Shown: positions 8,400 through 57,461 of the stretch, piece after piece | Layout: the number at the start of each line of letters is the position of its first letter | How positions within the stretch are numbered: position 1 is the stretch's first letter | Origin: Verrucomicrobiota bacterium | Lineage (GTDB): Bacteria; Verrucomicrobiota; Verrucomicrobiia; Opitutales; Puniceicoccaceae | DNA length: 64,000 bases | NCBI GenBank assembly: GCA_038744685.1 | Contig: JBCDMB010000002.1 | Coordinates: 1 to 64,000 of the forward strand | Reading direction: 5' to 3' | The notes under the pieces: generated by a model | Seen by the model: the letters and a program-made list of their open reading frames with translations, nothing else | Told to the model about the DNA's origin: nothing | Database searches by the model: none | Position numbers and translations under genes: made by a program

Positions 8400-9587
8400 T
8401 CAGGACTCGACCGCCGGTTCTTCCGCTTCAGCGCGGCCCCAGGCGACGTGAAAGCCAACCCGCTCTTCCCGCATGATGGTCTGTGCACGGTTGCTGATCC
8501 GCTGGGCGCGGGCTTCCTCGGTCTTCGCATCCTTTTCGAGCTTTTCGGCCGGACCGTCGGGAGCCTTGGCGTCCTTCCGGTTGAAAACGGGATCGGCCGG
8601 CTTCTTCTCACCCTCGGGTTTTTTCAACCCCTTGAGGAAGTCGAGAGTGGCCTCGCGGTTGGCGATGAGCGAGGGGCGGATCTTCTCCGGATCGGAGATA
8701 AATTCCGCGTATTCGCTCAAGGTGGCATCTGCCAGTTCGGTGGAAAGCTCGGTGACGCGATTGCGGAGATCGGCGGTTTCGCCGGCTGCGGTCTCAAGGT
8801 CTGCGAGCGTTTGGTCCGTCTCGTTGAGACGGTTGAGAAGAGCCCCCTCGTCGGCGTCTTCGCCGAGACCGAGAAAGCTCCGTAGTCGTTTGAGGAGGTC
8901 TTCCATTTGTGGTGTGTGATTAGGTTGGTTGTGATGGCCCCGGTTCATCAGGGGCGATAGATTGGTGAGGCCGCGCCTGTTCGTCAGGGCGGCGCCGGAA
9001 AGCTTCTTCGGCCGGATGCGGTTTTTGCCCAGAGACTCAAAGCCTCCGGATGGGAACTCGGGAGAGAGCCATCGATACTCGCGGCCCTCCACGTCGGCAC
9101 GACCAGATGGCGTCCAGTCGATGCGTGCCCAGAGACCGTCTTCACGGATCTCGGTTTCCTTGATCCAACCAGCGGCTCGTGTCTCTTGCGAGAGGTCGTG
9201 GCTGAGGTGGTCACGGTCGACCAGCATGTCGAGTGGCTTCGGGAGATCGCCGGCGATCGCTTCAATGGCAGAATCGTCGATCACCTGGACCCAATGCTTT
9301 CCTTTGGTGTCTCTGTTCGGGAACTCGCCCTTACTCACGAGATGATACCAGCCGTCTTCTCCGGGATTTTCGCGGTTGCGGAGGTCGGAACCGGGGCCAA
9401 AAGAGCGATTTTCCCCGGATTCGGGCGCGGAATTGAAAATTGCCGATGGCCTGCGAAACAGGACCCCGTTGCAAAATCGCTCTACCCTCTTGCAAAATCG
9501 TTTGTGGGGGGTAGTTGGTAGGTTGATACCAAATTGCCCCTCCAAAGCCTTTCTCGGGCAAAATTCGTGTCGGCTAGTCTTCTTCAT
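8400..9587 (-). CDS. Mu gpI-like head maturation protease with fused scaffold
   Basis: A 395-residue protein. ATG 9587 is chosen because GGAGGAAA precedes it, with a 14-base overlap of the portal gene end. Residues about 75-220 carry the Mu gpI protease pattern: GWYHLVSKGEFPNRD, DMLVDRDHLSHD (candidate catalytic His), ADVEGREYRWLSPEF and the KKLSGAALTNRRGL end. From internal ATG 8906 (MEDLLKRLRSFLGLG) to the C-terminus is a charged coiled-coil region typical of the scaffold part, which in Mu is also made separately as gpZ. Residues 1-70 are unusual: basic, with repeated FC or FN pairs (RFCKRVERFCNG). It processes scaffold and capsid during head assembly. Confidence 0.75.
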   Translation of the reverse strand: MKKTSRHEFCPRKALEGQFGINLPTTPHKRFCKRVERFCNGVLFRRPSAIFNSAPESGENRSFGPGSDLRNRENPGEDGWYHLVSKGEFPNRDTKGKHWVQVIDDSAIEAIAGDLPKPLDMLVDRDHLSHDLSQETRAAGWIKETEIREDGLWARIDWTPSGRADVEGREYRWLSPEFPSGGFESLGKNRIRPKKLSGAALTNRRGLTNLSPLMNRGHHNQPNHTPQMEDLLKRLRSFLGLGEDADEGALLNRLNETDQTLADLETAAGETADLRNRVTELSTELADATLSEYAEFISDPEKIRPSLIANREATLDFLKGLKKPEGEKKPADPVFNRKDAKAPDGPAEKLEKDAKTEEARAQRISNRAQTIMREERVGFHVAWGRAEAEEPAVES

Positions 9588-11103
9588 TTTCCTCCGTGGT
9601 GGAATTTTCGCGTTGGATCTCGGCCGCACCGGAGACGGCGGCCGTCCCGAGCACGCCTTCAAGGACTTCCGCGATCTTCATCTTCGTGGGATCAAGGCGG
9701 TAATTTTTGAGGCTGCGATCGAGAGACTTCAGAGCCTCGTCGAGTGAGTCGGGATCGGTAGCTTTCTCGATGGCGTCGAGAAGTCCGAAGAGATCGTCGA
9801 GGTCTTCACGGTTTGCCTCTGCCATGAGATCGACGGATGTTGAGCGGAGATCCTCCTCGATGCGGGAGCGGTTGAAGATGGGGGCGCGGTTTGTCAGGGG
9901 TGCCTCCTCTTCATCGGCGTCCTCGCCGATGCTACTTTGACTGGCTACTAGCTTGTATCCGGTTTTTTCCGACAGCTCATCGGCATCCATCCGGAGGCCT
10001 GCTTGGTGAGCGTCTTTTGCTCGGGTAAAGTGATCGTTGATGTCTTCCTCGTCACGAGCGGCCAGCTCGAAGTAGACGAGGCGATCCTCGTCCGGGAACT
10101 CACCGGCAAGAAACGGTTTGTCGAAATGCACCTGCAGGCACTCTGAAATGTCCATGGCGATCTCCTCAGCGATGGCCTGGAAGGTGTCTGCATGTTCCTC
10201 GCTGGCGCCTTCGCCGATACCGGTTGGCTTGGAGAGCTGGGTGAGCAAACCACCCGTGCCGGCTAGGACGATCTCTTCATCCTGGTAACGGGCATGAGAC
10301 TCGAAGGGATTCGTTCCGCGGGTGTTGGCGTCGGCCGTCTTGACGTCTGCGCCGTAGGGAAGGACACCGCGGGAATCTCCCATGACCGCCTTGGCGATCG
10401 GCAGGTATTTCTCCCACTCATCCCCGGAGGCTTCCTGTGGCATGACCAGGAAGATCCACGGGATGCCATAGGTTTCAATAAAGCCGTCCCAATCCTTTTT
10501 CGACAGGTTCTTGCGGATGTAGGCAAACAGGGCGACCTCGTCGATGGGGTCTTCAATTTCGCGGTAGACGAAGTTACCGAGGTTTACCTGTTCGCCTTTC
10601 TGAATGCCCGCTCTTGCGTCCAGGTTAATGCGCCATTCCCCATAGTCACCATCGGGCCGCACCCAATGCCATTGGGGAACGTGCTCAAGGCGATGGACGT
10701 GCCACTTGCCCTCTTCCTTGGTCCAATGCTTCTCCAGAAACGAGTATCCACGAAACTCGGCCAGGGCCAGCTTTCCAAAGACGGCGCGGATGTTCTCAAT
10801 GCGCTCATAAGCCATCCGGAGCTTCTCTTTCTGCTCCTCTGCGATCTTCTCTTTACCCTGCGGGATTTCGTCGATTACTTTGATGTTCCAGTCGAGTTTC
10901 TTGATCGAGCTGAGGACCCGTCGTTTGACAGCGCGGAGCGTGGAATCGCGCTTTTCAATAAACTTGTAGAGCCATTGCAAGTCGGCGTAGTCGCCGGATT
11001 GGGAACGCTCTAGGAGGGAAACGGCTTTCCGAATCGTAAGACCGCGTAACGGGTTGTGCTCTTCCCGGATGCGGTTGACGAGCTGTAGGGTGAGAGGGTT
11101 CAT
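9574..11103 (-). CDS. Mu gp29-like portal protein (DUF935 type)
   Basis: A 509-residue protein of the size and layout of Mu gp29/DUF935 portals, the dodecameric channel for DNA entry. Typical stretches are LLERSQSGDYADLQWLYKFI, RDSTLRAVKRRVLSSIKKLD, AEFRGYSFLEKHW and the stem-like KKDWDGFIETYGIPWIFLVM, followed by the gluconate-like GTNPFESHARYQDEEI region. The C-terminal 110 residues are acidic and include TNR and FNR repeats (LTNRAPIFNRSRIEED). Its ATG overlaps the terminase stop as ATGA, and its end overlaps the protease start. Confidence 0.85.
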   Translation of the reverse strand: MNPLTLQLVNRIREEHNPLRGLTIRKAVSLLERSQSGDYADLQWLYKFIEKRDSTLRAVKRRVLSSIKKLDWNIKVIDEIPQGKEKIAEEQKEKLRMAYERIENIRAVFGKLALAEFRGYSFLEKHWTKEEGKWHVHRLEHVPQWHWVRPDGDYGEWRINLDARAGIQKGEQVNLGNFVYREIEDPIDEVALFAYIRKNLSKKDWDGFIETYGIPWIFLVMPQEASGDEWEKYLPIAKAVMGDSRGVLPYGADVKTADANTRGTNPFESHARYQDEEIVLAGTGGLLTQLSKPTGIGEGASEEHADTFQAIAEEIAMDISECLQVHFDKPFLAGEFPDEDRLVYFELAARDEEDINDHFTRAKDAHQAGLRMDADELSEKTGYKLVASQSSIGEDADEEEAPLTNRAPIFNRSRIEEDLRSTSVDLMAEANREDLDDLFGLLDAIEKATDPDSLDEALKSLDRSLKNYRLDPTKMKIAEVLEGVLGTAAVSGAAEIQRENSTTEENEED

Positions 11104-54380: not shown

Positions 54381-55949
54381 ATGCCTGGCTGGAAAAACAT
54401 CGGTTTGCTCGCGCTTAGCCTTCTTTTTGGAGCAGCGGCATTCCTGCTGCCTGCTTACTTTAAAGCAGTAGATCCAGTAGTGATTCAAAAAGCAGCCAAA
54501 CAAGGCACGCCTCTATGGGAAGTGGCTGAGCGCTTTGAGCTGGCGGGGAATTCCACCGCAGCGCAATTTCTGTCCGATTCCGATGTCGCACCTGGAAGCG
54601 ATGCCTCAGCCTTCCCTTTTTGGGCCGATCTCATAGAAGAGGCGAACCCTACGCCTGCCGTGGCAGTGGAACCATTTTTGACCAAAACGTCTCGAGCCCA
54701 AGCGATTCGGAATTTAGACCGCTCGACGCTTCCAGCCGTCCGTATTCTCTTGCCCGCCATACCCGCAGAACCGTCGTCGGCTTCAGCTGCAGAGGAACGC
54801 GTCCAAATTCTCCCGGAGAGAGTAGGAGGCATTCTCGCAGTTTACCTAGCCGCTGAGCGAAGCTTTCAGCCGCAATTTCTTGGAGATCTGGTCCAATCGG
54901 CCACATCAGATAGTCCTGCAGACAATCTGTTGTGGTTCCAATTCTGTGAGGAGCTCGCGGTCTGGGGAAACTCACTTCCCTTTGAGGTGCTGTCCCAGAT
55001 GTTTCGTTCATTCGACTCACCAATGACTTTTCTCGAAATATCCAACCAACTTCGTGGAGAAAGGAGATCCCACCAAGCACTCGTTTCACGATTACTTCTC
55101 AGCGATGCAAATCCCGAAGAGCTCGTGCGCTTTCTCAAGAAATTTCCGCAACGGGGCCTTTCCGACCTAAATCAATCCTTCGCCATGGGTCCTGGCGGCT
55201 CTCTTTATCAGCTAGACCAGCAGAAAGTGATTCAGGAGGACACATTTATTCCCTCATCTTTCGAAGTTCCAGGATTCGAAGCTCCCGCGCGGCTTGTGCT
55301 GCTCTATCCGGAAGTGGCGCTCATTCTACGCATGGCGTTTTGGGTCTTCGCGTTCTTTTTTCTGATCATTTCGATTACTCCTCTGCTGCCCAATCCAGGA
55401 GACCGTGGTCTAGCCAGGCCAAATCTCTTCGAAGGAGCTATTCGAAAATTCGTTCTAGCGTCGATTTTTGCAGGGGCTATCCTACTCCTTTTCGAACCCA
55501 CCCTCTTTCAACAGCCAGACTCCGCCGACACCACAGTCCGTTTCCAACTTCAATCCGCATCTTTGGTAGCCACTTCCGCAAATCTCATGAATACAATCTC
55601 GATCGACGACGTTACGCTTCTCATCCTGCTCATTTTCCTCGCGCTTCAGCTCGGTCTTTACGTTTTTTGCTTGGTAAAGCTTTCGGAAATTCGCCGTCAA
55701 AATGTTTCCGAAGAGACTAAACTTAAGCTTCTCGATAATGAGGAGAACCTGTTTGACGGCGGCCTCTATCTCGGACTTGGAGGAACAGTCGCCTCCCTCA
55801 TTTTTCTCGCCGTGGGAGTCGTCGAAGCCAGTTTGATGGCCGCCTACGCCTCCACTCTTTTTGGAATCATATTCGTTTCACTCTTCAAGATCTTCCACCT
55901 TCGCCCCTTGAAGAGGAAGCTCATTTTGAGTGCGAGAGTATCCGTTTAG
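54381..55949 (+). CDS. Membrane protein with MotA/TolQ-like C-terminal helices
   Basis: A 522-residue inner-membrane protein. Signal-anchor helix (GLLALSLLFGAAAFLLPAYF, 7-27), a large periplasmic domain (about 30-305), then helices near 310-335 (ALILRMAFWVFAFFFLIISI), 355-380, 410-437 (LLILLIFLALQLGLYVFCLV) and 455-500. The last part, LGLGGTVASLIFLAVGVVEA followed by SLMAAYASTLFGIIFVSLFK, resembles the GLLGTV...TTAxG helices of MotA/TolQ/ExbB channel subunits. It lies 39 bases before a partner with a MotB/TolR-like N-terminus. The channel assignment is inference. Confidence 0.6.
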   Translation: MPGWKNIGLLALSLLFGAAAFLLPAYFKAVDPVVIQKAAKQGTPLWEVAERFELAGNSTAAQFLSDSDVAPGSDASAFPFWADLIEEANPTPAVAVEPFLTKTSRAQAIRNLDRSTLPAVRILLPAIPAEPSSASAAEERVQILPERVGGILAVYLAAERSFQPQFLGDLVQSATSDSPADNLLWFQFCEELAVWGNSLPFEVLSQMFRSFDSPMTFLEISNQLRGERRSHQALVSRLLLSDANPEELVRFLKKFPQRGLSDLNQSFAMGPGGSLYQLDQQKVIQEDTFIPSSFEVPGFEAPARLVLLYPEVALILRMAFWVFAFFFLIISITPLLPNPGDRGLARPNLFEGAIRKFVLASIFAGAILLLFEPTLFQQPDSADTTVRFQLQSASLVATSANLMNTISIDDVTLLILLIFLALQLGLYVFCLVKLSEIRRQNVSEETKLKLLDNEENLFDGGLYLGLGGTVASLIFLAVGVVEASLMAAYASTLFGIIFVSLFKIFHLRPLKRKLILSARVSV

Positions 55950-55988
55950 CGGCAGTCTGATATACGATTCATTGGAAGGAAATAACGT

Positions 55989-57461
55989 ATGAACCGCAGC
56001 CTGCTCCTCATCGTTTGCGACTTCCTGTTGCTGAGTCTTCTCGCACTCGCGGAGTTTGAAAAATCAGGACAACCCGTCACTGCTGGTCGCGAGGATATTC
56101 TCCAGGAGAGTATCGATGAATCCTTCGAGGATGACGCGATGATGGACCTTCTCGCCTCGGCACTTGCCGCCGAGCAGAACGAACAATCAGAAACCGAGGA
56201 CGCCTTGGGAGAAGCACTCCAGAGTCTCGAAGCGCTGGAGGAGGCCAAGAGAGACCTTTCCCTCGATTTGTTAGAGAAAGAGGAAGAAATCGTCGAACGG
56301 GAACGCCTTCTCGCTGAGGCGGAAGAAAAGGCGGCTGAACTTCTTGAGAGTAAGTCGGCTGCCGAAAAGCGTGAGGATGCCGCCAATCTTGAACTCCAAA
56401 GGCTTACTGAAGAGAAAGAAAAACTCGACGAAGAGGCAGCTGCTCTCGCCCAAAACGTAGAGGCATTGTCGGCAACAGCAGAAAGAAGTGACGAAGAGTT
56501 AATCCGCCGATCAGAGCGTGTCGCCCAACTGGAATCAGAGCTACAAAGTAAGCTGACCGCCTTGAACCGTGCGGAAGCGGAACGATCACGGCTTGACGCG
56601 GAGAGAATTCGCCTCGAGGGAGAAGTGAATGTCGCTGAGCGGGAAAAGGAGTTACTCGCCTCGACGCTTGCCTCAGCAAAGGAGACCATCGATCTCGAAC
56701 GGCAGGAGCGCCAGCGCCTCCAGACGCAAACAGAGACCTTGAGCGAAGGCGTTTCGAGACTCGCCGAGGCCTCCGATGAGATCACGGAAGAGGTGAAGGG
56801 TTTACGCCCTTTGACCGCCAACGAAATTTTCAGCACCGCCGAAGCCAATCATGTAACGATCCAATTTTCTGGAAAGACTTCCGGCCTCTTCGGGGACAGC
56901 ACCATTGAATCGACCACAAAGACCCTTGTCACCCAGATCGGAGGGCAACACTTCCTCTGGATTCATTTGTCCCAGACTCCGTTCGCACAAAAGGACCGTA
57001 GGAGGTTTTTCAGTCAGCTTGAGGCCTTTTTGGAATCGAACGGCACCCGTTTTAGGATTCCGCAGATGGGTCTTCTGAAATCCAACCCGTCGCTTTTGTT
57101 TCTCCCTCTTTCCGAGGCAATTGTTTCTCGTTTGGGGGTCGAAGTCTACTCCACAACGGAAACCCCTTTTCGCTTCGATGAATTGATTGTTCTCGATCTG
57201 GATGATGCACGTTTTGGAGAATCCGGATTCCGAATTGAATCCGCTCAGTCCGATTTGATTGAAGTCGATAACAAAGTCTTCTCTGCGCTTTTCGGTGAAT
57301 TCTCTCCTGCCGCCGGAGACCTCGCACTAACCCGCTCTGGAGACTTTCTGGGAATCGTCCTAAGAGGAGGAACCGCTTGGATGGCAGGAAGCGTAGATAC
57401 AGCCGGAAAAATCACCTTTGGAGATCAGTTTTCCCGAAGTCAGCTCGACCAGCTACCTTAA
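55989..57461 (+). CDS. Membrane-anchored coiled-coil protein with MotB/TolR-like N-terminus
   Basis: A 490-residue protein with GGAAGG before ATG 55989. The single N-terminal helix, LLLIVCDFLLLSLLALAEF, has an Asp in its first turn-set, the position of the proton-carrying Asp of MotB/TolR/ExbD. Residues about 55-265 are a continuous coiled coil (EEAKRDLSLDLLEKEEEIVE, LEGEVNVAEREKELLASTLA). Residues 270-490 are a separate beta-rich domain (HVTIQFSGKTSGLFGDSTIE, HFLWIHLSQTPFAQ, LALTRSGDFLGIVLRGGTAW). No peptidoglycan-binding OmpA motif is seen. It is co-directional with the MotA/TolQ-like gene and probably its partner. Confidence 0.6.
   Translation: MNRSLLLIVCDFLLLSLLALAEFEKSGQPVTAGREDILQESIDESFEDDAMMDLLASALAAEQNEQSETEDALGEALQSLEALEEAKRDLSLDLLEKEEEIVERERLLAEAEEKAAELLESKSAAEKREDAANLELQRLTEEKEKLDEEAAALAQNVEALSATAERSDEELIRRSERVAQLESELQSKLTALNRAEAERSRLDAERIRLEGEVNVAEREKELLASTLASAKETIDLERQERQRLQTQTETLSEGVSRLAEASDEITEEVKGLRPLTANEIFSTAEANHVTIQFSGKTSGLFGDSTIESTTKTLVTQIGGQHFLWIHLSQTPFAQKDRRRFFSQLEAFLESNGTRFRIPQMGLLKSNPSLLFLPLSEAIVSRLGVEVYSTTETPFRFDELIVLDLDDARFGESGFRIESAQSDLIEVDNKVFSALFGEFSPAAGDLALTRSGDFLGIVLRGGTAWMAGSVDTAGKITFGDQFSRSQLDQLP

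Follow-up and report, generated by a model that had tools for sequence, protein, structure and literature searches.

A conserved two-gene pair of Verrucomicrobiota as a candidate ion-driven envelope machine

Could two neighboring genes that belong to no known family encode an ion-driven membrane complex of the kind formed by MotA/MotB and TolQ/TolR? The question was raised by a stretch of 64,000 nucleotides (nt) from a Verrucomicrobiota bacterium (assembly GCA_038744685.1, contig JBCDMB010000002.1, positions 1 to 64,000 of the forward strand; hereafter, the window). A prediction made from the sequence alone had proposed that two of its open reading frames (ORFs) form a new pair composed of a MotA/TolQ-type and a MotB/TolR-type protein. 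Both ORFs are complete and lie 39 nt apart, at the coordinates and with the lengths originally given. A ribosome-binding-type sequence, GGAAGGA, precedes the second. Pfam and NCBIfam scans placed neither gene in a family, other than coiled-coil noise. The two genes are:

54381..55949, + strand: gene 1, an ORF with an ATG start, 522 amino acids (aa) and six predicted transmembrane (TM) helices; candidate MotA/TolQ/ExbB-like ring subunit
55989..57461, + strand: gene 2, an ORF with an ATG start and 490 aa; candidate MotB/TolR-like axle with a coiled coil and a pseudo-peptidase head

Our analysis suggests that genes 1 and 2 each encode one half of an ion-driven inner-membrane machine working like MotAB, ExbBD, and TolQR, a reading to which we assign a probability of about 0.6. 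The likeness to MotAB and TolQR holds if the residue correspondence described below is right. The segments that had attracted attention were all recovered (LGLGGTVASLIF at residues 464–475 and STLFGIIF at residues 491–498 of gene 1, and IVCDFLLLSLLALAEF at residues 8–23 of gene 2). They exceed what chance would produce: both genes have homologues across the order (Opitutales) and the class, Asp11 of gene 2 is invariant, and the segments of gene 1 fall in its most conserved part.

The pair is real, and it is kept together across many Verrucomicrobiota. Searches of 132 Opitutales genomes detected gene 1 in 73 and gene 2 in 75, including all 73 that carry gene 1. Of the two genomes with gene 2 only, G062 holds a fragment that is cut by the edge of its contig, and G011 (discussed below) a remnant limited to the head. 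The genes are neighbors in most genomes, and at 88 of 100 further loci gene 2 directly follows gene 1 on the same strand, commonly with an overlap of 1 nt. They are adjacent again in a divergent family, f33 (L299–L303). Twelve genomes of families f17 and f21 hold both genes far apart or on separate contigs; since both are retained there despite being unlinked, their co-occurrence is not merely a by-product of linkage. The original prediction had made itself dependent on co-occurrence in other genomes, and it passed this test even where linkage is lost. Each gene is present in a single copy, with the TM motif and the head of gene 2 each occurring once per genome. Many relatives have no copy at all, indicating that the pair is not essential in every lifestyle. 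The genome of the window also encodes, elsewhere, seven classical ExbB/TolQ (PF01618) loci and eight ExbD/TolR genes; such genes are numerous in these genomes, so the pair is additional to the Ton and Tol systems rather than a replacement for them.

Two observations on gene 1 outside the standard arrangement are worth recording. In family f17 (L076, L078, L082, L084), the unlinked gene 1 stands directly before genes that read as lpxA-like and pdxA-like. At another locus (G359:C12:288490-289246), gene 1 has apparently decayed into two fragments with several in-frame stops.

The feature of gene 2 that bears most directly on our question is its N-terminal helix:

55998..56054, + strand: single TM helix of gene 2 (about residues 4–22), as judged from its conservation, the lack of a conserved face, and its single copy per genome
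56019..56021, + strand: codon of Asp11, the candidate ion-carrying residue, invariant in homologues

The first 24 residues (consensus MNKSLLLVICDFLLLSLLALARF) are the most conserved part of the protein, with 3.61 bits per column versus 2.0–2.2 in the coil and the head. Like MotB, TolR, and ExbD, gene 2 has one TM helix, at its N-terminus, and this helix bears an invariant Asp. Asp11 is present in 51 of 51 aligned homologues and, by direct reading, in 88 of 88 further pairs (one of these, which escaped the search pattern, reads FIVDFLF). The f33 helix is MRTSILIVMLDFLVCSLLLFVIG, in which the surrounding TM sequence has changed and Asp11 has not. Conservation of this residue was the second test by which the original prediction could have failed, and the residue was retained throughout. 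We considered whether this N-terminus might be a signal peptide and rejected the idea, given the mean column identity of 73% and the invariant Asp within the hydrophobic core; moreover, the segment ends in SIVDF, SFVSF, or ALTRW in homologues, without an AxA site.

Gene 1 was modeled with AlphaFold2 at a mean predicted local distance difference test (pLDDT) score of 88.1. The model consists, in order, of TM1, an all-helical domain (31–300), TM2, TM3, a poorly ordered loop (380–405), TM4, a short helix, TM5, and a long TM6:

54384..54446, + strand: TM1 (residues 2–22), from the model helix and hydropathy
54471..55280, + strand: all-helical domain (about residues 31–300), from the model; probably periplasmic, judging by topology
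55308..55385, + strand: TM2 (310–335), from the model
55425..55493, + strand: TM3 (349–371), from the model
55608..55943, + strand: conserved core, comprising TM4 (410–439), a short, probably cytoplasmic helix, TM5 (460–478), and TM6 (484–521), from conservation, the PomA match, and the ExbB profile alignment
55785..55787, + strand: codon of Thr469, aligned with ExbB Thr148 in the profile alignment and present in 135 of 135 homologues
55851..55856, + strand: codons of Ser491-Thr492, aligned with the threonine pair of ExbB TM3 (Thr181 region), with homologue counts given below

Conservation peaks at residues 410–514, with a mean of 3.13 bits versus 1.6–2.0 elsewhere, and the short helix between TM4 and TM5 bears an invariant NEENLFD-type segment. 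N453, D459, L462, G465, T469, Y489, G495, and I496 never vary in the 135 homologues, f33 included; S491 is kept in 133 of them, and position 492 is T in 89 and N in 46. The f33 proteins have lost the glycine of the GTV motif while keeping Thr469 and the Ser/Thr site, which makes them useful for defining a minimal core. The charge of the C-terminal tail (+6) and the number of helices argue for a topology with both termini inside, which would leave the helical domain and the 372–409 loop outside. The large extra periplasmic domain that had been predicted for gene 1 is accordingly present in the model as an all-helical unit, and its periplasmic side follows from this probable topology. The link between TM4 and TM5 measures only about 20 residues (440–459) in the model, and gene 1 lacks the large cytoplasmic domain characteristic of MotA, TolQ, and ExbB.

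Three independent lines, none of them decisive alone, point to a likeness between this core and the MotA/TolQ family. The first is a comparison, using HH-suite, of a widened gene 1 core profile (135 sequences) with an ExbB/TolQ profile built from the same genomes. The two aligned over 67 columns (score 19.8, P 0.007), with GLxGTV lying on GLLGTV and AYASTLFGI on ALLTTVAGL. T469 is matched with ExbB Thr148, and S491/T492 with the Thr181 region, at a modest significance of about 1%, as 6 of 460 column-shuffled profiles reach the same score. ExbB Thr148 and Thr181, as well as ExbD Asp25, have been called essential (PMC12905483). In an earlier hhalign run with 42 gene 1 sequences, the GTV segment alone had aligned (P 0.015), and the TM helix of gene 2 was too short a segment to yield a result against ExbD. 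Structure provides the second line: VIA-align ranked PomA second and third among matches to gene 1, over residues 404–522, and mapped TM4, TM5, and TM6 in order onto the last three helices of PomA, a correspondence that is suggestive only. The third is the geometry of conservation. In TM5 and TM6, conservation is concentrated on one face (p 0.005–0.025), whereas the gene 2 helix is conserved uniformly all round (p 0.81). The controls from the same genomes behave likewise, with p values of 0.04 and 0.01 for TM2 and TM3 of ExbB and 0.60 for the TM helix of ExbD. This is the pattern expected for a ring around an axle.

Several results weigh against this reading. HH-suite (hhalign) assigned the core alignment a probability of only 5% despite its P value. 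The PomA scores (Z 7.4 and 7.2) lie within the helical-bundle background, since unrelated helical proteins score Z 6–9. A match to the MotA profile, in which the MotA TM4 segment AALVGTFLGILL aligns with AAYASTLFGIIF, picks the same TM6 segment and is not significant (10 of 100 shuffles reach its score). PF01618 (MotA_ExbB) was not matched by gene 1 or 41 of its homologues, and no ExbD-type match (PF02472) was found for gene 2 or among the families listed for 51 homologues; formally, the pair belongs to neither family. Neither single-sequence nor hidden Markov model searches gave a significant match to any solved motor. Our conservation counts take in related genomes, and the head-only case described below comes from one genome. 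A structural match to the MotA/TolQ fold was the third test set for the original prediction, and the PomA match is suggestive only. The predicted resemblance of the C-terminal helices of gene 1 to channel subunits is supported, at modest significance, by the profile alignment of essential Thr positions, and not by Pfam.

Other searches returned little. Foldseek found nothing significant for the whole gene 1 model, and profiles compared with sequences from the PDB gave no motor match, with gene 2 matching coiled-coil proteins only. A relaxed search with the gene 1 core profile produced subthreshold matches, which turned out to be short glycine-rich segments of other proteins rather than ExbB loci, and we rejected them as evidence.

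Beyond its TM helix, gene 2 (AlphaFold2 model, pLDDT 82.2) comprises a shaft and a head:

56157..56684, + strand: coiled coil (residues 57–232), about 26 nm, from the continuous model helix and the hydrophobic period
56808..57413, + strand: trypsin/HtrA (S1C)-like head (residues 274–475) with a degenerate active site, from Foldseek, VIA-align, and a check of the triad

Residues 57–232 form one continuous helix in the model (pLDDT about 90). Hydrophobic residues recur in it with a period of exactly 3.5, and each heptad has two hydrophobic positions, which is consistent with a coiled coil. With a rise of 0.1485 nm per residue, the shaft would be about 26 nm long; its roughly 176 residues fall short of the 210 or so first proposed. 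The distance from the TM helix to the head is 202–308 residues in 50 of 51 homologues and 385 in the remaining one.

The head had been described as a new beta-rich domain without a peptidoglycan-binding motif. Its fold is in fact a known one, the double beta-barrel of the trypsin/HtrA type (Foldseek probability 1.00, E about 5e-6 to DegP/Deg; VIA-align Z up to 12.6 against HtrA/trypsin folds), and gene 2 indeed contains no OmpA-like peptidoglycan-binding domain, nor a TolR/ExbD periplasmic domain. The match is a structural one, as hhalign of the head against HtrA sequences was not significant. The intact triad and GxSG motif of HtrA/S1C peptidases are missing: at the presumed catalytic positions, located through motif alignment, His occurs in 23, Asp in 48, and Ser in 17 of 51 homologues, all three in 10, and GxSG in none, and the protein of the window has H326, N366, and A441. 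Most likely, the head is a non-catalytic binding domain.

An informative variant was found in G011, a genome that is 95% complete and in which gene 1 was not found. Just after its fur and peptide deformylase (def) genes, as read from the sequence, where other genomes carry the pair, it has a 272-aa ORF (L339:6218-7033) that consists of the head only, with a signal-peptide-like N-terminus and neither the Asp nor the coiled coil. Loss of the partner appears to have accompanied loss of the Asp helix and the shaft, with the head staying on as a putative secreted protein. In this one genome, the arrangement fits an Asp helix that serves gene 1 and a head that has a target of its own.

How might such a pair operate? 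We propose that copies of gene 1 form a ring, presumably a pentamer. TM5 and TM6 would line its pore, to which they would contribute Thr469 and Ser491/Thr492. A pair of gene 2 copies would thread their single N-terminal helices through this pore, placing Asp11 beside the threonine ring, and the passage of ions via Asp11 would turn or pull the gene 2 dimer against gene 1. The motion could then travel along the parallel coiled coil to the catalytically degenerate trypsin-fold head, which would bind a periplasmic, cell-wall, or outer-membrane partner. More speculatively, the helical domain of gene 1 may encircle the coiled coil at its base, like a collar. Because gene 1 has no large cytoplasmic domain, the output should be periplasmic, as in GldLM, TolQR, and ExbBD.

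The same observations could be explained without any use of energy. In a passive envelope tether or scaffold, the conserved helices would merely assemble the two proteins, Asp11 would be a buried polar contact, and the coil would hold the head at a constant distance. Nothing in the coiled coil or the head is energy-dependent, G011 retains the head on its own, with no part of a motor, intramembrane Asp/Thr contacts occur in stable assemblies too, and the ion flow is something that we infer. A tether would not, however, be expected to show a position-specific match of Asp11, Thr469, and Ser491/Thr492 to three essential residues of ExbBD (PMC12905483), and we consider this explanation rather unlikely, while still the foremost competitor of an ion-driven machine. 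Somewhat less probable is an ion-conducting sensor, in which the head would bind a periplasmic ligand, such as an unfolded protein or a cell-wall fragment, and gate ion flow or assembly through the coil, so that information would pass inward rather than force outward. The head does resemble HtrA/DegS-type domains and the S1C domain of RsgI9 (7sjy_B), an anti-sigma factor of a substrate-sensing family (PMC12203970), and it has kept other residues of the fold though its triad has decayed. Yet no conserved signaling gene lies beside the pair, whose neighbors vary between families and look like housekeeping genes, and the model leaves gene 1 almost no cytoplasmic domain with which to receive a signal.

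Finally, gene 1 could be a transporter or an assembly factor unrelated to motors, its likeness to them a convergence of glycine-rich membrane helices. The weak sequence statistics and the high scores of unrelated helical folds in the structure search would be in line with this. It would leave unexplained why two proteins jointly retain a helix with an invariant Asp and a core with an invariant Thr, why conservation is one-sided in one and all-round in the other, as in ExbB/ExbD, and why gene 1 and the Asp helix were lost together in G011; we regard it as improbable, and the least plausible of the readings considered.

Taken as an ion-driven machine, the pair resembles ExbB/ExbD and TolQ/TolR in being made of two proteins, in the three-helix core of the ring subunit that ends in the cytoplasm, in the GLxGTV and T/S-T-x-x-G motifs with both threonine positions in register, and in a partner whose one N-terminal helix bears an invariant Asp, with the same geometry of conservation. 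Unlike ExbB/TolQ, gene 1 has two extra TM helices plus TM1, a large helical domain, and a tiny cytoplasmic domain; unlike ExbD/TolR, gene 2 carries a trypsin-like head on a long coiled coil instead of a small TolR/ExbD domain; and unlike the Ton and Tol systems, the pair includes no TonB/TolA-like gene. With MotA/MotB (PomA/PomB) it is linked by the suggestive structural match to PomA, and the gene 2 helix has an Asp-Phe, which the helix of MotB also carries. In contrast to these stators, gene 1 lacks the torque-generating cytoplasmic domain and gene 2 the OmpA-like peptidoglycan-binding domain; the MotA_N profile had no match in the genome of the window.

More distant comparisons are also instructive. 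GldL/GldM sets a precedent for a 5:2 motor that shows no obvious sequence homology to MotAB; its long periplasmic shaft, a dimer, measures 18 nm (PMC9389320). Compared by description only, the GldM shaft consists of four periplasmic domains, as opposed to the coiled coil and trypsin-fold head of gene 2, and the six helices of gene 1 set it apart from GldL. In the TPH-vWA force transducers predicted by Williams-Jones et al. (2025), also in Verrucomicrobia, a TolQ-like ring would have partners that insert their own Asp helix into the pore (PMC12204202). As in gene 2, the periplasmic part of these partners is a non-TolR domain; there, however, the ring is a recognized TolQ homologue and the head a vWA domain, whereas gene 1 lies outside the known family and the head of gene 2 is a pseudo-peptidase on a coiled coil. 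ZorA/ZorB, to which the pair had initially been likened, has the same two-gene 5:2 logic. A PADLOC search that included the ZorA profile, run on the gene 1 side only, matched none of 42 homologues. Unlike in Zorya, no effector genes were noticed beside the pair, and its vertical, single-copy distribution does not resemble that of a defense island. As for HtrA/Deg (S1C) proteins, the head of gene 2 shares their fold and differs in its broken triad and the lack of a PDZ domain. Targeted searches of the open-licence literature turned up no ring described together with a coiled-coil/pseudo-HtrA partner. The pair is probably an undescribed family, possibly a separate class. We give even odds to the fuller proposal that it represents an unrecognized class of ion-driven trans-envelope motor in Verrucomicrobiota, in which a six-helix ring outside the MotA/TolQ family, without cytoplasmic output, would act on the cell wall or outer membrane by turning or pulling an axle made of a 26-nm coiled-coil shaft and a pseudo-peptidase head.

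In the window, recJ is the immediate upstream neighbor of gene 1, on the same strand, and a gene of the 3-keto-disaccharide hydrolase family lies about 200 nt past gene 2. Across 60 neighborhoods, no third gene is generally conserved; the flanking genes differ between families and read as housekeeping genes. In family f2 (L064, L103, L104), a membrane protein of 1040–1124 aa is encoded directly after gene 2 on the same strand and, by eye, looks like an STT3-type oligosaccharyltransferase whose C-terminal part is LysM-like. Elsewhere in the window, a Mu-type phage portal protein (PF06074) at 9574–11103 points to a prophage in its first part.

To our knowledge, only a few ion-driven inner-membrane machines are known, namely the flagellar stator, Ton, Tol, the gliding/type IX secretion motor, and Zorya, and each of them opened a field. 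If our reading is true, the pair would add a motor whose ring architecture, shaft, and type of head are all new. The bacteria that conserve it form a large environmental group, and their envelopes have been little studied. Because specific residues stand out as the candidate ion carrier (Asp11) and as the threonines of the ring, the idea is open to tests with point mutants. From the head-only remnant, it seems that the head also has a separate job, which can be studied by itself.

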